Positions 20,794 to 29,173 of a stretch of DNA of 64,000 nt are shown one piece after another. The stretch lies in the NCBI RefSeq assembly GCF_014207935.1, contig NZ_JACHLL010000001.1:186001-250000 (forward strand). Reading direction: 5' to 3'. Position 1 is the first letter of the stretch, and each line of letters starts with the position of its first letter. The position numbers and the translations under genes were made by a program. The DNA is from Pseudomonas fluvialis (lineage in GTDB: Bacteria; Pseudomonadota; Gammaproteobacteria; Pseudomonadales; Pseudomonadaceae). The notes below the pieces were generated by a model. It worked only from the letters and a program-made list of their open reading frames with translations. It did not search any database and was not told the origin of the DNA.

Positions 20794-21642
20794 ATGCCCA
20801 ACCTGCGCCTTGCCGACCTGTACGACGAAATTCAGCGCAACGTGCAACTGGCGCTGCAGGAAGATGTCGGCGCCGGGGACATCACCGCCCAGCTCATTCC
20901 CGCAGAACGCATGGCGAGCGCCCGCGTGATTACCCGCGAGGCAGCCGTACTGTGCGGTAGCGCCTGGGTTAACGAGGTCTTCCGCCAGTTGGCCCCCAGC
21001 GTCGTCGTCACCTGGAACGCCCAGGACGGCGACAAAGTCAGTGCCGATCAGACCCTGTTCACCCTGAACGGCCCAGCACGCGCTCTGCTCACCGGTGAGC
21101 GCAGCGCACTGAATTTCGTGCAGAGCCTGTCCGCCGTCGCCACCCGTTGCCGCCAATACGCCGACCTGGTCGAAGGTACGTCGGTAAAACTGCTCGACAC
21201 TCGCAAGACCATCCCCGGTCTACGCCTGGCACAGAAGTACGCCGTCACTTGCGGCGGCTGCCACAACCACCGCATCGGGCTGTACGACGCCTTCCTGATC
21301 AAGGAAAACCACATCGCTGCCTGCGGAGGAATCGCTCAGGCCATTGCCAGCGCACGGCAAATCGCCCCCGGAAAACCGGTGGAAGTGGAAGTGGAGAGTC
21401 TTGAGGAACTGCAACAGGCTCTGAACGCCAGCGCCGACATCATCATGCTCGACGAGCTGAGCCACGCGGACATGCGCACCGCCGTACAGCTCACAGCCGG
21501 CCGCGCCAAGCTGGAAGCCTCCGGCGGCATCAACGACAGCACCTTGCGCAGCGTCGCCGAAACCGGCGTGGACTACATATCCATTGGAACCCTGACCAAG
21601 GACATCAAAGCCATCGACCTATCCATGCGCCTAACGATGTAA
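20794..21642 (+). CDS. nadC: Nicotinate-nucleotide pyrophosphorylase (carboxylating)
   Basis: Quinolinate phosphoribosyltransferase, 282 residues, converting quinolinate and PRPP to nicotinate mononucleotide in de novo NAD synthesis. Visible motifs are [39 protein letters not shown] (PRPP/quinolinate binding arginines and lysine), [21 protein letters not shown] and [11 protein letters not shown] near the C-terminus. The ATG at 20794 follows GGAG. In Pseudomonas this gene marks one flank of the variable pilin locus, as it does here. A terminator and tRNA-Thr follow. Confidence 0.97.
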
Positions 21643-21695: not shown

Positions 21696-21771
21696 TGGTG
21701 CCGGTAAGAGGAATCGAACCCCCGACCTTCTCATTACGAATGAGCTGCTCTACCGACTGAGCTACACCGGC
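21696..21771 (-). tRNA. tRNA-Thr (CGT anticodon)
   Basis: The minus strand folds as a 76-nt tRNA beginning GCCGGTGTAGCTCAGTCGG and ending with encoded CCA. The anticodon stem-loop TTCGTAA gives CGT, a threonine tRNA. The acceptor stem GCCGGTG/TACCGGC pairs. This tRNA is the known boundary of the exchangeable pilin region in Pseudomonas, between nadC and pilA. Confidence 0.95.
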
Positions 21772-21814: not shown

Positions 21815-22735
21815 TTAAACCGCCGCCTTCATCTTCTGCCGCTCGGCATCTTCAAGAATCTTGAAGAACACGGTTTCCAGAGAAACCGCCGGCTTGACCG
21901 TCAGCACATGCCCACCCGCCATATTCAGACGGTTGATAAATGCCGGCAAATCGGCCTGCATCACCTCGAACTCGAACTCGCCGTCACGCAGACACTTGGC
22001 TGCCGGCTCGAAATCGATCTGAGCATTAAAACGCACCAACAGGCAATCCGCCCGCTCAGCGGCCAACTCACGCGGTGAGCGTACGGTCAGCAGCTCACCC
22101 TTGTTGATAAAGCCAAAACGATCAGCAATACGCTCGACATCGTGCAAGACATGAGAGGTAAAGAAGATGGCGCCCCCTTCCTTCTTGTACTCGTTAAGGA
22201 TATCCACCACATCCTTACGCCCGACGGGATCAAGGCCGGAAAGCGGCTCATCCAACACCAGCAGCTTGGGCTGTACCACCATGGCATGCGCTAGGGCTAC
22301 CCGCTGAACATTGCCTTTGGAAAGCTCACGGATACGCCGGTTGGCATTCTCAGCTACGGAAAAACGCTCCAGCACGGACACGCACCAAGCCTTGGCATCC
22401 TTGCGCTTGATGCCATACATGGACAGCGCCGCACGCAGGATTTCCAGTGGAGTGAACTGCTCATAGAGCGAGGGCGACTCAGACACAAAGGCGAGCGGCT
22501 GACGAGCTTCAGCACGCCGAGCATCAACGCCGTAAATACTGACCTGCCCCTGATAGTCATTAATGATATCGAGCATCACCTTTATGGTGGTGGACTTGCC
22601 GGCACCATTGGGGCCGACAAAACCGAAAACCTCGCCCTCAGCAACACTCAGGTCGACATTACGAAGAGCCTGAACCACCTTACCCTTGCCACGAAAGGTC
22701 TGGGAGACGCCGTGGAACTCTAATGCAGCGCTCAC
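21815..22735 (-). CDS. ABC transporter ATP-binding protein of the pilin locus (PilH-like position)
   Basis: A 306-residue ABC ATPase of the NatA/CcmA-like exporter type. Walker A GPNGAGKST is at 41-49, a divergent signature LSKGN at 138-142 in place of LSGGQ, Walker B LLVLDE at 158-163, and an H-loop in FFTSHVLHDVERI; about 90 extra C-terminal residues follow. The GTG start lies 8 bp after GGAGG and only 2 bp from the previous stop. It pairs with the permease at 23569-24399. In Myxococcus, pilH encodes an ABC ATPase next to pilA that is needed for pili; position and type suggest the same job here, but this is inference. A general drug or lipid exporter is the alternative. Confidence 0.87.
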   Translation of the reverse strand: MSAALEFHGVSQTFRGKGKVVQALRNVDLSVAEGEVFGFVGPNGAGKSTTIKVMLDIINDYQGQVSIYGVDARRAEARQPLAFVSESPSLYEQFTPLEILRAALSMYGIKRKDAKAWCVSVLERFSVAENANRRIRELSKGNVQRVALAHAMVVQPKLLVLDEPLSGLDPVGRKDVVDILNEYKKEGGAIFFTSHVLHDVERIADRFGFINKGELLTVRSPRELAAERADCLLVRFNAQIDFEPAAKCLRDGEFEFEVMQADLPAFINRLNMAGGHVLTVKPAVSLETVFFKILEDAERQKMKAAV

Positions 22736-22737
22736 GA

Positions 22738-23565
22738 CTAATCCTCCATACCGGCGATCTTCATTTTCTTCAAGATGATTTTCCCATCGCGCAGTTCGTA
22801 ACCAAGGTTAAGAGGGTCTTCAGGTAAATGTGCCAACAGACCCGCATCGATTAGCTGATTAAGTCTCACTAACGCACCATTATCTTTCTCATAACGGCGC
22901 TGCGCCTCGCGCAAAGTGACCAACCCCTGTAGCCGAACAACACGCTTATCGAGTATTACGCGCAACTTTGAATCACGGCTAGCGTCACGCTGCTGAGTCA
23001 AATAATCAAGAGCCAATCTTTCATCAGCAAAGCTCTCAACGCGCAACATAATCGCCAACTTCATCAAAGCAGGAGAATTGCTTGGCCAGCGCTGCGCAGA
23101 CAATTCAAGCGCCCGCACAGCCTCATCAATATCATTTTCGAAAAAAGATTTATTTATTGCATAGAGAAAACCTGGAACACCATCCCACATACGACAATCT
23201 ATCGCAGCCTGCAGCACAAAGTTAGCATCATCAACCGCACCGCCCCATGCCAACAAACCATTTGCCAAGTAATAATTATCCTCATGACACGGATGAAGCC
23301 GCGCCACCTCCCGCTGAGCCCTTGTCAAATAAAGAGTATCAACACCAATAACATCCACACCAGTCACAGCCAAGCGCATGACTTCCAAGTCACCCGCCAA
23401 AAAACGATCACCCGCCATTAAAACCACAAGAAACGGTGCAGGAACAACAACTCGATCACCATATGAATAATCGGCAGCAGCCCCCCCACTCCTCGAGAGC
23501 TGAGCCGACGCAACGAACAAGCCAAACACCAAAATGAAAACTATATATTTCTTCCAGACCCACAT
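22738..23565 (-). CDS. Membrane-anchored helical-repeat protein of the pilin locus
   Basis: I do not recognise this 275-residue protein by name. An N-terminal hydrophobic segment (YIVFILVFGLFVASAQL, residues 7-23) is an uncleaved anchor or signal peptide. The body is helical with TPR-like spacing (NYYLANGLLAWGGAVDDANFVL, then FFENDIDEAVRALELSAQRWP), and it ends with LPEDPLNLGYELRDGKIILKK. It sits between permease and ATPase with gaps of 3 and 2 bp, so the three surely work together. The likely location is the periplasmic face of the inner membrane. In Myxococcus the equivalent slot is pilG, a poorly characterised partner of PilHI; homology cannot be claimed from reading. AT-rich compared with the flanks. 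Confidence 0.75.
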   Translation of the reverse strand: MWVWKKYIVFILVFGLFVASAQLSRSGGAAADYSYGDRVVVPAPFLVVLMAGDRFLAGDLEVMRLAVTGVDVIGVDTLYLTRAQREVARLHPCHEDNYYLANGLLAWGGAVDDANFVLQAAIDCRMWDGVPGFLYAINKSFFENDIDEAVRALELSAQRWPSNSPALMKLAIMLRVESFADERLALDYLTQQRDASRDSKLRVILDKRVVRLQGLVTLREAQRRYEKDNGALVRLNQLIDAGLLAHLPEDPLNLGYELRDGKIILKKMKIAGMED

Positions 23566-23568
23566 AAA

Positions 23569-24399
23569 TCAATCCATACATCTACGACGCACAGCAAAAA
23601 TAGCAAGCGCAATAAAAATAAATGCATAAATCACTGAAGAAGTTACCGACCAAATTAAACCAGACGGCAAAACCTCCCATGTTGAATACAGAGCAACCCC
23701 ACGCACATCCAACTGCCCGAGATCAGGAACAAGATAATACAGCCAACCCACCCCATTCCTATAAAAGCCAGCATAGCCATCACCAACAACCCAAGGAGAC
23801 ACTCCAAGCAGCTCAAGCACAGAAGAATACGACCTTGCTATAATTAAAAAACCCGCCCCACCCAAGAACACAAAACCAGCAGAAGATGAGAACACTGATA
23901 AAAAAACAACAACCGCAGTAAAAACCAAAGCATCAAAAACTAAAAGAGCAGCCGTAAAAGAAAGCCCCCCTAGCAAAGAAACAGGAGTAGATTGCTGATA
24001 CCAGCCTGAAATCCAAAAAACCTCAAACCCAAGAAGAACAAACAACCAAACCAGCAAACCAATAGCCAGCAACCAAGCAGCCAAAATCCTCGAAACCAAC
24101 CAACGCACTCGAGACAACGGATAAACCATCGTACACAAGTAATACTTCCGCTCAAACTCCCTAGAAATCAACTCATGCACGACAACAAAAATCAACATCG
24201 GTAAAAAAATACGGATAACCGAAATACCAATATCAAGAGAAACCGTCGCCGGCTGACGCGCACTAAACATCGACGCCAAAAAAACCAGACATCCAAGCGC
24301 CAATGTTAAGCCGCACCACAAACCAATTTTCCCCCGCACTGCAACCTGCAATGCCAATCGAAACTGAGCAAGCAATCCCTTATCCAAAAACACCACCAA
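23569..24399 (-). CDS. ABC-2 type permease of the pilin locus (PilI-like position)
   Basis: A 276-residue polytopic membrane protein with about six hydrophobic segments, among them IGLWCGLTLALGCLVFLASMF, FLPMLIFVVVHELIS, ILAAWLLAIGLLVWLFVLLGF and a C-terminal FIFIALAIFAVRRR. The layout matches ABC-2/NatB-type permeases. The segment VVHELISREFERKYYLCTMVYPLSR resembles the cytoplasmic coupling region of such permeases. The start is unclear: TTG 24399, GTG 24396 or GTG 24393, all just after GGTGGA. The gene is strikingly AT-rich (for example 26 G+C in the 60 bases from 24001). It begins just past the pilin terminator, so it probably depends on read-through. Confidence 0.8.
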   Translation of the reverse strand: MVVFLDKGLLAQFRLALQVAVRGKIGLWCGLTLALGCLVFLASMFSARQPATVSLDIGISVIRIFLPMLIFVVVHELISREFERKYYLCTMVYPLSRVRWLVSRILAAWLLAIGLLVWLFVLLGFEVFWISGWYQQSTPVSLLGGLSFTAALLVFDALVFTAVVVFLSVFSSSAGFVFLGGAGFLIIARSYSSVLELLGVSPWVVGDGYAGFYRNGVGWLYYLVPDLGQLDVRGVALYSTWEVLPSGLIWSVTSSVIYAFIFIALAIFAVRRRCMD

Positions 24400-24420
24400 T
24401 CCACCAATAAAGTTGACTTC

Positions 24421-24452
24421 AAAAAAAAAGAAGGCGCAGAACGCCTTCTTTT
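24421..24452 (-). terminator. Strong intrinsic terminator after the two pilin genes
   Basis: On the minus strand AAAAGAAGGCG pairs with CGCCTTCTTTT around a 5-base loop and runs into nine T residues. It lies 13 bp after the pilA-C stop and 20 bp before the permease start, so most pilin transcripts should stop before the ABC genes. Confidence 0.9.
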
Positions 24453-24465
24453 CTATGACACCCTA

Positions 24466-24933
24466 TTAGTACGGCAGAATAGCGCCAACAGTACCCGACG
24501 TGCAATTTCCCCCAAGTGCTTGACCTGCGACACCACCACCACGGGTATTAACAACGAAGCCGGAGTAATCTGCAGTGATGGTAAACTGACCTGCTACCTG
24601 AGTGCTGCCATCACCATTCGGGCAAGAAGCATTGTTCCAGGAGTCATCTGCGGTACCAACCTGGGCATCAGCACCCGGATCAGTTGAAACACACTGGTAG
24701 ACACGCGACTTGCGGCTACCGGCATTGTGACAGGTTGACACTGCAGCTGCGTTAGCCGCTTCATTGCAGGCATAAGCCGCGAGAACGCCATTAGATGTTT
24801 GGATGGTTACATCCTCACCCAGAGTAGGGCAGGCAGCGGTAGTAATCACACCACCTTGCGGCAGGTCAACTGCAGAGGCACCGGCGGCAAAAAACAGCGA
24901 AGTCAGAGCAATTGCGATTGCATGCTTTTTCAT
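24466..24933 (-). CDS. Secreted six-cysteine protein, candidate C-terminal pilin partner (PilA-C-like)
   Basis: A 155-residue precursor with a Sec signal peptide MKKHAIAIALTSLFFAAGASA (cleaved after residue 21) and no prepilin-peptidase motif. The mature part is small-residue rich, with six cysteines (C35, C56, C68, C81, C104, C144) able to form three disulfides, and it ends in GAILPY. It follows the 58-residue pilin by 27 bp and shares its terminator. The size equals the globular head that is missing from that pilin. By analogy with the Geobacter PilA-N/PilA-C pair, I infer it docks on the helical pilin to make a complete subunit; it could instead be an accessory pilus-surface protein. The ATG at 24933 follows GAGAGAAC. 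Confidence 0.8.
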   Translation of the reverse strand: MKKHAIAIALTSLFFAAGASAVDLPQGGVITTAACPTLGEDVTIQTSNGVLAAYACNEAANAAAVSTCHNAGSRKSRVYQCVSTDPGADAQVGTADDSWNNASCPNGDGSTQVAGQFTITADYSGFVVNTRGGGVAGQALGGNCTSGTVGAILPY

Positions 24934-24960
24934 GATTCGTTCTCTCAATTTAACTTTAAA

Positions 24961-25137
24961 TTAGCGCTGAGCTGCAGAGAGCACGGTAGCCGCATTCTTT
25001 GCGTCAGCCTGCGCGCTCGAGTCGTTCGCTTTAGCGCGATACTCGTTAAATTGCGGAATTGCGATAGCAGCCAGAATGCCGATGATCGCAATCACGATCA
25101 TCAGTTCGATCAGGGTAAAGCCCTTTTGCTTCTTCAT
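24961..25137 (-). CDS. pilA: Short type IV pilin containing only the N-terminal helix (PilA-N-like)
   Basis: A complete 58-codon gene: leader MKKQKG, then the class-III cleavage site G6/F7 and the invariant glutamate at mature position 5 ([20 protein letters not shown]), then [20 protein letters not shown] and a stop after SAAQR. The mature protein is 52 residues against about 140-150 for normal PilA; the globular beta-sheet and disulfide loop are absent. The stop is followed by a ribosome site and a new gene, so this is not a frameshift. It occupies the pilA slot, divergent from pilB, with a sigma-54 promoter and AGGAG 8 bp before the ATG. PilD should cleave it. Mature aromatics are F1, F24 and Y27 only. 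Confidence 0.92.
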
Positions 25138-25184: not shown

Positions 25185-25200
25185 AGCAGGTAGCGTGCCA
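25185..25200 (-). promoter_or_regulatory. Sigma-54 (-24/-12) promoter of the pilin genes
   Basis: The minus strand reads TGGCACGCTACCTGCT, with GG and GC at the -24/-12 spacing of RpoN promoters (consensus TGGCAC-N5-TTGC). It lies about 50 bp upstream of the pilA ATG and predicts a 5' leader near 35-40 nt. In Pseudomonas, pilA is activated by PilS-PilR through RpoN, so this cassette appears wired to the host system. Confidence 0.8.
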
Positions 25201-25369: not shown

Positions 25370-27070
25370 ATGAACGACGCCCTGCCTATCCTTACCGGCC
25401 TTGCTAAGCAACTGGTGCTTGCCGAGCTGCTCGACGAGCGCAGCGCCCAGCAGGCACAACTGCAAGCCCACCGCAACAAGCTATCGCTGGTCACCTATCT
25501 GGTGCAGAACAAACTGATTAAAAGCAGCCAACTACTGGAAGTAGCTGCCGACCAGTTTGGCGTACCGTATTGCAGCCTTGCCTCCATCGACAAGGAAAGT
25601 CAACCCCGCGATCTGATCAGCGAAAAGCTTTGCCGCCAACACCGAGTGCTACCACTGTATAGGCGTGGTAATAAGCTCTTTATTGCCATCTCTGATCCAA
25701 CCAACCATCAAGCCACAACGGATATTCAGTTCAGTACTGGCTTGAGCACTGAAGCACTCTTGGTTGAAGACGACAAACTAGGGGAGGCAATAGAGAAGTT
25801 TTTCGATACCGGCGCGAGTGGCATGGGAGACTTGGCTGACGTCGATCTTGAAGGCCTTGACGTCGAAGCCATCTCGGATGACAAGGAGGAAACAGCTGGC
25901 AATGATGCCGACGACGCTCCCGTGGTGCGTTTCGTCAACAAAATGCTACTTGACGCCATCAAGGGTGGCTCGTCAGACCTGCATTTCGAACCTTATGAAA
26001 AAGCTTACCGAGTGCGTTTTCGCACCGACGGTATATTGCATGAGGTAGCGCGCCCACCGATTCAGCTGGCCAGCCGTATTGGCGCCCGCCTGAAGGTAAT
26101 GGCTGCTCTGGATATCTCCGAACGGCGCAAGCCGCAGGATGGCCGGATCAAAATGAAAATATCCAAGAACAAGGCCATCGACTTTCGCGTCAATACCCTG
26201 CCGACCTTGTGGGGCGAAAAGATCGTAATGCGAATCCTCGACCCCAGCAGCGCGCAGATGGGCATTGACGCACTGGGCTACGAAGAAGAACAGAAAGAAC
26301 TTTATCTGACTGCCCTCAAACAACCGCAAGGCATGATTCTGGTGACTGGCCCTACGGGCTCCGGCAAAACGGTATCGCTCTACACCGGCCTGAATATCCT
26401 CAATACAGTAGATGTGAATATTTCCACCGCGGAAGACCCTGTAGAGATCAATCTTGAGGGCATCAACCAGGTCAACGTTAATCCCAAGCAGGGCATGGAC
26501 TTTACTCAGGCACTGCGCGCCTTCCTGCGCCAGGACCCAGACATCATCATGGTCGGTGAGATCCGCGACTTGGATACTGCCTCCATTGCAGTGAAAGCAG
26601 CACAGACCGGCCACATGGTGATGTCCACTCTGCACACCAACAGCGCAGCGGAAACCCTGACACGCATGCGTAATATGGGCGTGCCGTCATTCAACATTGC
26701 CACCTCGGTTAACCTGATCATTGCCCAGCGCCTGGCCCGCAAGCTCTGCTCCTGTAAGAAAGAAGTCGAAATTCCCAAAGAAGCGCTGTTGAAGGAAGGA
26801 TTCCCTGAAGACAAGATTGGCACCTTTAAGGTCTACGGCCCGGTTGGCTGCGAAAACTGCAAAGGCGGCTACAAAGGTCGTGTCGGTATTTATGAAGTGG
26901 TTAAAGTCACGCCCGCGCTACAGCGGATTATCATGGAAGAAGGCAACTCCATCGATATCTCGGTGCAAATGCGCAAAGACGGCTTCAATGATCTAAGAAC
27001 TTCGGGCCTCGTTAAGGTAATGCATGGCGTTACCAGCCTGGAAGAAGTCAACCGTGTGACCAAGGATTAA
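25370..27070 (+). CDS. pilB: Type IV pilus assembly ATPase
   Basis: The hexameric extension motor of the type IVa pilus, 566 residues. An N-terminal MshEN-like domain is followed by the ATPase core: Walker A GPTGSGKT near residue 327, the Asp/Walker B region ending DIIMVGEIRD, and the His box GHMVMSTLHTN. The four zinc cysteines lie in LCSCKK (about 455-458) and GCENCKGG (about 493-496). It has the full length of P. aeruginosa PilB. It is divergent from the pilin genes and begins the pilB-pilC-pilD-coaE-yacG operon, with 3-bp gaps to pilC and pilD. Confidence 0.97.
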   Translation: MNDALPILTGLAKQLVLAELLDERSAQQAQLQAHRNKLSLVTYLVQNKLIKSSQLLEVAADQFGVPYCSLASIDKESQPRDLISEKLCRQHRVLPLYRRGNKLFIAISDPTNHQATTDIQFSTGLSTEALLVEDDKLGEAIEKFFDTGASGMGDLADVDLEGLDVEAISDDKEETAGNDADDAPVVRFVNKMLLDAIKGGSSDLHFEPYEKAYRVRFRTDGILHEVARPPIQLASRIGARLKVMAALDISERRKPQDGRIKMKISKNKAIDFRVNTLPTLWGEKIVMRILDPSSAQMGIDALGYEEEQKELYLTALKQPQGMILVTGPTGSGKTVSLYTGLNILNTVDVNISTAEDPVEINLEGINQVNVNPKQGMDFTQALRAFLRQDPDIIMVGEIRDLDTASIAVKAAQTGHMVMSTLHTNSAAETLTRMRNMGVPSFNIATSVNLIIAQRLARKLCSCKKEVEIPKEALLKEGFPEDKIGTFKVYGPVGCENCKGGYKGRVGIYEVVKVTPALQRIIMEEGNSIDISVQMRKDGFNDLRTSGLVKVMHGVTSLEEVNRVTKD

Positions 27071-27073
27071 GTA

Positions 27074-28297
27074 ATGGCAGAGAAAGCACTGCAAACCAGT
27101 GTCTTCAAATGGGAAGGCACTGACCGCAAAGGAGCCAAGGTCAAGGGCGAGCTGAACGGACAGAACCCGGCGTTGATCAAGGCGCAACTGCGCAAGCAGG
27201 GCATCAACCCGACCAAGGTGACCAAAAAGGGCAAGGATCTTTTTGGTGGCGCGGGCAAGAAGATCAAGCCCATGGACATTGCCCTGTTTACCAGACAGAT
27301 GGCCACCATGATGAAGGCCGGCGTTCCGCTACTGCAGTCCTTCGACATCATCGGTGAGGGTTTCGATAATCCCAACATGCGCAAGCTGGTTGATGAAGTG
27401 AAAATGGAGGTCGCTGCAGGCAACAGCTTCGCCTCCTCTCTACGCAAGAAACCGCAGTATTTTGACGACCTGTACTGCAATCTAGTCGATGCCGGCGAAC
27501 AGTCCGGCGCCTTGGAAACTCTGCTAGACCGTATCGCCACCTTCAAGGAAAAGACCGAAGCACTAAAAGCCAAGATCAAAAAGGCCCTCAACTATCCAAT
27601 GGCCGTGATCGTAGTAGCAATCATCGTGACTGCGATCTTGCTGATCAAGGTAGTACCACAGTTCGAGGCGGTCTTTGAAGGTTTTGGCGCTGAGTTACCC
27701 GCCTTTACTCAAGTCGTAGTCAACATGTCACGCGGACTACAAGAGTATTGGTATCTGTTTTTAGGCGCCATTCTTGCTTTTGTCTTTGCATTTCAGGAGG
27801 CTCACAAGCGCTCAGAAGCCTTCCGAGACTGGATGGACCGCACAATGCTGAAGCTGCCGATTGTTGGCGACATCATGTATAAAGCGACCGTAGCGCGCTT
27901 TGCCCGCACCCTGGCCACCACCTTTTCAGCAGGTGTACCACTGGTGGAGTCACTGGACTCGGTGGCAGGCGCCTCAGGCAACGTGGTTTTCCGCAATGCG
28001 ATTGGCACCATAAAGCAGGATGTGTCTTCCGGCACCCAGCTCAACTTCGCCATGCGCAGCACCGGCATCTTCCCCTCCCTAGCTATCCAGATGACGGCCA
28101 TTGGCGAAGAATCGGGCGCCCTGGACACCATGCTCGACAAGGTAGCCAGCTTCTACGAAGCAGAAGTAGACAATGCGGTGGACGGGCTGACCGCATTAAT
28201 GGAGCCTATGATCATGGCTGTTCTCGGCGTACTGGTCGGCGGCCTGATCATCGCCATGTACCTGCCAATCTTCCAACTCGGCAATGTCGTTGGCTAA
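27074..28297 (+). CDS. pilC: Type IV pilus inner-membrane platform protein
   Basis: A 407-residue polytopic protein of the GspF/PilC family that couples the PilB motor to pilin insertion. The two repeated cytoplasmic domains are visible (FTRQMATMMKAGVPLLQSFDI and FARTLATTFSAGVPLVESLDS), each followed by membrane segments (AVIVVAIIVTAILLIKVVPQF, and the C-terminal MIMAVLGVLVGGLIIAMYLPIF). It starts 3 bp after pilB and is of normal length. It must handle the shortened pilin of this strain, yet shows no obvious departure from the usual sequence by eye. Confidence 0.97.
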   Translation: MAEKALQTSVFKWEGTDRKGAKVKGELNGQNPALIKAQLRKQGINPTKVTKKGKDLFGGAGKKIKPMDIALFTRQMATMMKAGVPLLQSFDIIGEGFDNPNMRKLVDEVKMEVAAGNSFASSLRKKPQYFDDLYCNLVDAGEQSGALETLLDRIATFKEKTEALKAKIKKALNYPMAVIVVAIIVTAILLIKVVPQFEAVFEGFGAELPAFTQVVVNMSRGLQEYWYLFLGAILAFVFAFQEAHKRSEAFRDWMDRTMLKLPIVGDIMYKATVARFARTLATTFSAGVPLVESLDSVAGASGNVVFRNAIGTIKQDVSSGTQLNFAMRSTGIFPSLAIQMTAIGEESGALDTMLDKVASFYEAEVDNAVDGLTALMEPMIMAVLGVLVGGLIIAMYLPIFQLGNVVG

Positions 28298-28300
28298 TAC

Positions 28301-29173
28301 ATGAATGGATTGACATTTCTGGCCGGCAATTTGCCGGCCTTTGTTTTGGTCGTACTGGTTTTCGGCTTGCTAATCGGCAGCTTCCTCAATGTACTGGTCT
28401 ACCGCCTGCCCAAGATGATGCAGCGCGAATGGTGCGTGCAGGCCAGGGAAATATTGGAGCTTGAGCCTGAGCCGGCAGGGCCGACCTTCAATCTGGTATT
28501 GCCCAACTCCACCTGCCCGCACTGCCAGCATGAGATTCGCCCCTGGGAGAACATCCCCCTGCTCAGCTGGCTGGCACTGCGCGGCAAATGCTCGGCATGC
28601 AAAGCTCCGATCAGCACGCGCTATCCGCTGGTGGAGCTGGCTTGCGGCGTGCTGTCCGCCTTTATTGCCTGGCAATTCGGTCCGACCTGGCAGTGCGCAG
28701 CCATGCTGCTGCTGAGCTGGGGGCTGCTGGCGATGAGCCTGATCGATGCCGACCACCAGTTGCTGCCGGACGTACTGGTGCTGCCACTGTTGTGGCTGGG
28801 ATTGATCATCAACCAATATGGACTGTTTGCCACGCCAGGCGACGCTCTGTGGGGCGCAGTGGCGGGCTATCTGAGCCTGTGGTCGGTGTACTGGCTGTTC
28901 AAGCTGCTGACCGGCAAGGAAGGCATGGGCTACGGTGACTTCAAACTGCTGGCCATGCTCGGCGCCTGGGGCGGCTGGCAGATTCTGCCGCTGACCATCC
29001 TGCTGTCTTCATTGGTAGGCGCCGTGCTGGGCGTGATCATGCTGCGCCTGCGCAACGCCGAGACCAGCATCCCCATCCCGTTCGGCCCCTATCTGGCTAT
29101 CGCCGGCTGGATTGCGCTGATCTGGGGTGAGCAGATCACCTCTGCCTATCTGCAGATCGCCCACTTCAACTGA
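28301..29173 (+). CDS. pilD: Prepilin peptidase / N-methyltransferase
   Basis: A bifunctional inner-membrane aspartic protease that cleaves the leader of type IV prepilins and type II pseudopilins and methylates the new N-terminal Phe. Zinc-binding cysteines C72, C75, C97 and C100 are present. The catalytic aspartates D149 (SLIDADHQLLPD) and D213 (MGYGDFKLL) match the P. aeruginosa numbering. The length of 290 residues is normal. It starts 3 bp after pilC. Its expected substrate here is the 58-residue pilin at 24961-25137, which keeps the G/F cleavage site and E5. Confidence 0.97.
   Translation: MNGLTFLAGNLPAFVLVVLVFGLLIGSFLNVLVYRLPKMMQREWCVQAREILELEPEPAGPTFNLVLPNSTCPHCQHEIRPWENIPLLSWLALRGKCSACKAPISTRYPLVELACGVLSAFIAWQFGPTWQCAAMLLLSWGLLAMSLIDADHQLLPDVLVLPLLWLGLIINQYGLFATPGDALWGAVAGYLSLWSVYWLFKLLTGKEGMGYGDFKLLAMLGAWGGWQILPLTILLSSLVGAVLGVIMLRLRNAETSIPIPFGPYLAIAGWIALIWGEQITSAYLQIAHFN

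Follow-up and report, generated by a model that had tools for sequence, protein, structure and literature searches.

A probable two-gene type IV pilin and its linked ABC genes in the pilin island of Pseudomonas fluvialis

In this work, we found that the pilin island of Pseudomonas fluvialis very likely holds a split-pilin allele, in which a helix-only prepilin (PilA-N) and a separate, Sec-exported head (PilA-C) would form one subunit for PilB/PilC with the help of linked ABC genes. The locus lies in a 64,000-nucleotide stretch of the genome (contig NZ_JACHLL010000001.1, positions 186,001 to 250,000), hereafter the window, and its features are given in Table 1. The explanation is based on gene content, conservation, linkage, and predicted folds, from which we infer the filament and the role of the ABC genes. 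An earlier sequence-only reading had described the pair as a 58-residue helix-only prepilin and a 155-residue protein with a Sec signal and six cysteines, 27 bp apart, and its coordinates are right. The extent that it gave for the locus (24466-25137) holds for the pilin pair but stops short of three further genes at 21815-24399.

Table 1. Features of the split-pilin locus and its surroundings, in window coordinates.
Feature	Position	Strand	Description
nadC	20794-21642		far side of tRNA-Thr from the pilins
tRNA-Thr	21696..21771	(-)	bounds the pilin island
PilH-like (by analogy) ABC ATPase	21815..22735	(-)	306 aa; Pfam ABC_tran E 3e-27
PilG-like (by analogy) protein	22738..23565	(-)	275 aa; N-terminus hydrophobic, remainder soluble and possibly TPR-like; weak TPR_14
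PilI-like (by analogy) ABC-2-type permease	23569..24399	(-)	276 aa; several hydrophobic segments by hydropathy; weak Pfam PF12679, below cut-off
terminator-like hairpin with U-run	24405..24462	(-)	between pilA-C and permease gene; z -4.13
pilA-C	24466..24933	(-)	155 aa, Sec-type signal, six Cys; read as severed pilin head
pilA-N	24961..25137	(-)	58-aa type IVa prepilin, helix only; leader of 6 aa and mature chain of 52 aa; Pfam N_methyl 48 bits
sigma54-type promoter-like site TGGCACGCTACCTGCT	25185..25200	(-)	upstream of pilA-N
pilB, assembly ATPase	25370..27070	(+)	divergent from pilA-N; T2SSE, MshEN
pilC, platform protein	27074..28297	(+)	T2SSF
pilD, prepilin peptidase	28301..29173	(+)	Peptidase_A24

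Pilin-island alleles of Pseudomonas are pilin groups with Tfp accessory genes. The variable pilA region of the window sits in the same position as these alleles, between tRNA-Thr/nadC and pilB; unlike the other alleles, it has a split pilin and ABC genes and no full-length pilin. Three ORFs of more than 270 aa each fill the stretch from pilA-C to tRNA-Thr and encode the permease, the PilG-like protein, and the ABC ATPase. All are co-directional with the pilin pair, giving a cassette of five genes, and relatives of the permease hold the same position in the family loci. The permease and PilG-like genes have a GC content of 0.44-0.50, compared with 0.52-0.55 in pilB/pilC and about 0.6 further out; the low GC coincides with a marked asymmetry between the strands (AT skew of at most 0.56) at window positions 22800-24400, over these two genes. 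The promoter and terminator proposed earlier for the pair were both recovered as candidate signals: the sigma54-type site lies 47 bp before the pilA-N ATG (chance expectation 0.37 matches per whole window), and none of 200 shuffles was as good as the hairpin and U-run 3' of pilA-C, which is absent from the list of a simple terminator scan.

A search for other loci with a short PilA, suggested by the same reading, was productive. The helix-only pilA-N was found in at least 38 of the 298 Pseudomonadaceae genomes (a count from the matches listed by the PilA-N search), and the corresponding 38 loci are the window and 37 that were fetched. Automated calling placed PilA-C 11-33 bp after pilA-N in 37 of them; in the remaining locus (L048), PilA-C was missed by the calling and shown by tblastn. 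A tblastn survey of 48 loci, in which L029 and L030 were without matches, showed that the pair is accompanied by permease, PilG, and ATPase in every one of the 37 fetched loci except that of genome G124 and detected none of the three in nine control loci chosen for longer pilins (L064-L072). It also showed some PilI, PilG, and PilH ORFs that the text filters of the automated calling had missed. The head itself varies too much to be useful for searching, and PilA-N and PilG took its place: a single-sequence search with PilA-C matched 11 of 148 family genomes, and among these, the matches of G002 and G058 (loci L029 and L030) were weak and broken.

Across public genomes, a PilG-led scan found 138 relatives, and the analysis used the best 80. 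A helix-only pilin with a mature length of 52-54 aa is present in 76 of these best 80 of 138, and a signal-bearing ORF, as judged by a crude filter, follows the pilin in 75 of the 76. This count and the family count are not independent, since many Pseudomonadaceae rows are the same genomes. In four loci (L127, L131, L147, and L150), pilin and PilG are about 5 kb apart, and the permease was unrecognised. The family to which Thauera sp. Sel9 belongs has PilG in 16 of 61 genomes. The arrangement recurs in beta-, gamma-, and zetaproteobacteria, and named carriers include Stutzerimonas stutzeri, Pseudomonas anguilliseptica, Thauera, and Mariprofundus.

Across the phylum, PilG was found in 32 of 398 genomes, 27 of them outside the family of the window, and the loci of 20 of these 27 were fetched. 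Three of the 20 hold a split pilin. Among the other 17, PilG is accompanied by a full-length pilin of 113-195 aa (mature) in 13, full-length pilins occur without a called PilG in one, and no pilin was seen in three. With models based on the window, a permease was recognised beside PilG in 76 and an ATPase in 88 of 99 PilG loci; in the 13 loci with a full-length pilin, the same models recognised a permease in three, an ATPase in seven, and both in none. Looser criteria (Walker A motif, hydropathy, same strand, and within 1.8 kb) located both an ATPase-like ORF and an ORF with 6-8 segments in eight of the 13 (L187, L189, L194, L195, L197, L198, L201, and L202). The order in six of them (L187, L189, L194, L195, L197, and L198) is pilin, large membrane protein, PilG, ATPase, and a protein with 6-7 segments; in its PilG, ATPase, and membrane-protein genes it resembles the order reported for Myxococcus xanthus. 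The large membrane protein between pilin and PilG, of about 430-600 aa with 7-11 hydrophobic segments, was observed in these six loci and in L191.

In an unrooted PilG tree with long branches, seven unlabelled rows, and an unsettled bootstrap, the loci with split pilins (77) and those with full-length pilins (13) are separated by a single branch (support 94/88). Duplicates (L183-L185) and L192, which has no PilG called, were excluded; the three most divergent rows (L200-L202) may be misplaced. As the distant PilG relatives lie near full-length pilins, and in keeping with the tree, the ABC set may be older than the split of the pilin. More broadly, it is conceivable, and we offer this tentatively, that a separate class of type IV pili is common to beta-, gamma-, and zetaproteobacteria, with a subunit of membrane helix and Sec-exported head and an ABC machine dedicated to it; this ABC set would predate the split, as distant relatives next to full-length pilins keep a Myxococcus-like gene order, the split would have arisen inside that lineage, and the whole cassette would be one allele of the pilin island in Pseudomonadaceae.

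These distributions bear on the possibility that the ABC genes merely travel with the pilin island and serve an unrelated substrate. This alternative agrees with the hairpin that stands between pilA-C and the ABC genes and with the locus of G124 (L023), which has the pilin pair without ABC matches nearby and is the lone exception among the 38 short-pilin genomes. Against this, when the same 298 genomes were searched with a PilG profile, the 37 positives equalled the short-pilin set minus G124, such that PilG is present in 37 of 38 short-pilin genomes and in none of the 260 others (Fisher p 1.5e-46, kinship ignored, with a profile built from the family loci and hence not blind to them). The 76 loci with a helix-only pilin among the best 80 of 138 PilG loci and the 13 with PilG and a full-length pilin among the 17 distant loci point in the same direction, and we regard the passenger explanation as unlikely.

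Comparison with M. xanthus supplied the names used here for the three genes by analogy. Its pilAGHI operon is described, in PMC3546991, as encoding an ABC accessory factor (PilG), an ATPase (PilH), and a permease (PilI), and it likewise links genes for an ATPase, a permease, and an accessory protein to pilA. The PilA of M. xanthus is full length, whereas the window has a split pilin followed by permease, PilG-like, and ATPase genes in that order. PilGHI is called essential for pilin translocation in one passage that cites Wu 1998 (PMC3724824), and experimental support for PilGHI as ABC transporters was not available according to a passage of PMC6060248.

Turning to the pilin pair, PilA-N has a complete class III leader, Glu5, and a single hydrophobic helix that is followed by the stop codon, with no head. 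Its mature chain ends about where alpha1 ends in full pilins. The closest PDB sequence matches are chains named 'Geopilin domain 1' (E 2e-17 to 5e-15). The Geobacter pilin is encoded by two genes, and the alpha1 region is treated as the first 55 residues of the pilin, in sections of PMC11046646.

For PilA-C, the Sec-type signal ends in AGASA, as judged by eye and hydropathy. The protein alone was modelled with pLDDT 85.4 and pTM 0.79, and the top solved match of the model comes from the pilus of Geobacter metallireducens, namely its PilA-C chain (9egp_B; Z 7.0, rmsd 2.5, 72 aligned residues of 92), with a Z below 8 but far above that of the next row, which is unrelated (Z 3.5). A read-through fusion of PilA-N and PilA-C was also modelled (pLDDT 79.7, pTM 0.73), and the predicted chain is packed as one pilin. 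VIA-align returned seven rows with Z >=2 for this fusion; the first six are type IV pilins, with Z 7.2-3.6, under 8 and in a range that the notes of the program itself call common, and the other row is a non-pilin with Z 2.0. Five of the six pilin rows align across both parts, and the match with the full-length PAK pilin covers 118 residues and spans both parts. Foldseek found nothing for the fusion model at E 0.001; its best E was 0.67, the rows were mostly glycosidases and antibodies, and a pilin (4bhr) appeared only at rank 26. Because the fusion is one artificial chain, it speaks for the compatibility of PilA-N and PilA-C and not for their binding.

By sequence, PilA-C had no match at E 0.1 among the families of Pfam and NCBIfam, and a single-sequence search of PDB sequences gave no match at E 1; for the permease and the PilG-like protein, neither family database gave a match over its cut-off. 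The heads come in two types: type A has 4-7 cysteines, mostly six, and type B has two and belongs to cassettes with more distant ABC genes. Profile comparison linked type A with type B (prob 90; 0/60 column shuffles reached the score), type B with the heads of the PilG-linked full-length pilins (prob 63; 0/60 column shuffles), and these heads with Geobacter PilA-C (prob 75.5; 0/100 sequence shuffles). One core, S-x-x-V ... H-x-x-G ... S-x-x-G, is common to the three links, and controls with reversed alignments or other pilin heads stayed at prob <1. Direct comparisons were fainter: type A against the full-length pilin heads was weak (prob 6), type A against a fragment of Geobacter PilA-C reached a prob of only 1.9, though 0/100 shuffles reached the score, and type B against Geobacter PilA-C was not significant (7/100 shuffles). 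A PilA-C profile that included the signal matched Geobacter PilA-C at E 0.0011; this match leans on the signal peptide, since the mature-only profile (A5) found nothing among PDB sequences at E up to 5. The type B profile (A2) had a single PDB match, which is unrelated (E 0.34). In set A6, 21 of the 32 in-frame relatives were used and 11 were left out. Joint loss of cysteines as a guide to disulfides was set aside, because one of the patterns may be an alignment shift.

Taken with the fold match and the fusion model, this chain of profiles makes a Geobacter-like two-piece pilin, as the sequence-only reading had proposed, the best reading of the pair, with PilA-C most likely a severed pilin head domain. 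Another reading is that PilA-N alone forms the filament and that PilA-C serves as a helper or cargo, in the periplasm or secreted, and not as a structural head. Filaments of PilA-N only have been argued for the conductive pili of Geobacter, in a debate in print that is covered in part of PMC9207759, and the leader and alpha1 of the PilA-N studied here are complete. This is nevertheless quite improbable given that the fold of PilA-C matches a chain of the G. metallireducens pilus, that the profile chain runs through type B and the full-length pilin heads, and that the signal-bearing ORF stays beside PilA-N in nearly all of the PilG-linked loci counted above (75/76, from the best 80 of 138).

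For the preferred two-chain subunit, the following route may be proposed. PilD would trim PilA-N within the membrane, as its leader suggests, and PilA-C would be exported by Sec and fold in the periplasm as a cysteine-rich beta-sheet head. The head would then dock on the exposed half of alpha1 (alpha1-C) to give the two-chain subunit, which PilB/PilC would polymerise and PilT would retract. The permease, the PilG-like protein, and the ABC ATPase may form a membrane complex that most likely aids the export, stabilisation, or loading of the pilin pieces before assembly; this role is suggested by gene linkage and by the reports on Myxococcus pilGHI.

The genome has 20 N_methyl places, distributed over the split-pilin locus, two minor-pilin clusters, a gsp cluster in which GspG exceeds the NCBIfam cut-off, and an msh-like cluster that has a PilB-like ATPase of its own (cluster names partly by eye). 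Four PilT-family ATPases are over the cut-off, and PilM is also present. A full-length pilA elsewhere in the genome had been named as a point against the two-piece reading. No second type IVa major-pilin gene is evident among the N_methyl places, although two full-length PilE-like pilins and an msh-like pilin do exist; as the other N_methyl pilins lie in gsp, msh-like, or minor-pilin clusters, the short pilin holds the slot of the major pilin. It is highly improbable that the short gene is a decayed pilA and that the pili are made of another pilin, such as a PilE-like protein or one from the msh-like cluster: such genes do occur, but the order and length of the short pilin are constant across many species, its promoter-like site and hairpin are both in place, and the other pilins sit in the clusters just named. 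The msh-like pilus cluster and the two minor-pilin gene sets correspond to L032, L033, and L034 (C5, C2, and C4), and one minor-pilin set adjoins a very long PilY1-like gene (partly by eye).

Among known systems, PilA-N/PilA-C of Geobacter (6VK9, 7TGG, and 9EGP) is the closest, since it likewise combines a helix-only pilin with a separate head and is matched by PilA-N in sequence and by PilA-C in fold; the literature search found no paper on structure 9EGP. In comparison with Geobacter, the head described here is longer, mostly with six cysteines in type A, its sequence link is indirect, and the pair belongs to a pilin island, where it diverges from pilBCD and is followed by the permease, PilG-like, and ATPase genes. 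Geobacter PilA-C was proposed to be a split-off head (PMC5174107), and its common ancestry with pilins was doubted in a portion of PMC6201914. The bridge through the PilG-linked full-length pilins favours the former view over the latter.

The sequence-only reading knew of no described Pseudomonas pilin group with this form, but the view that the form is undescribed was not supported. Pseudomonas is listed among the genera with truncated pilins in an excerpt of PMC5174107 (2016), which does not mention PilA-C or ABC genes there. In the pilAB operon of Azoarcus sp. BH72, which PMC3262810 calls essential for pili, pilA codes for 'a short prepilin' and is co-transcribed from a sigma54 promoter with a second gene, and both genes are called crucial for pili. 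From the Thauera relatives L110, L112, and L114, we would guess that the cassette in the window is akin to Azoarcus pilAB. Twitching is reportedly essential for the colonisation of rice by Azoarcus BH72, to go by the title of a paper.

Among the open-licence papers searched, by titles and the starts of abstracts, none linked split pilins with PilGHI. As far as these searches show, three points are new: the identity of the PilA-C partner as a head outside Geobacter, the ABC set as a near-constant companion of the split pilin in these proteobacteria, and the distant forms of the ABC set beside full-length pilins. The split pilin would no longer be a special case of Geobacter and conductive wires, and the genomes described here offer more tractable hosts for studying how a two-chain subunit is made. 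Because ABC genes and split pilin almost always occur together in this family, these genes also provide a handle on the old open question of what an ABC transporter does in pilus biogenesis.

Several loci have additional genes. A second helix-only pilin is present in 19 of the 76 PilG loci with such a pilin (L022, L035, L036, L073, L085, L086, L113, and others); it is diverged, often located after pilA-C, mostly without an evident second head, and perhaps a minor split pilin. L021 has a second PilA-C-like protein without a PilA-N of its own (L021:8463-8897). In the type B cassettes L055 and L058-L063, an extra gene adjoins the ABC ATPase (e.g., L060:8218-9264); by eye, its product resembles a membrane protein of the acyltransferase-3 (OafA-like) kind and could modify the pilin.
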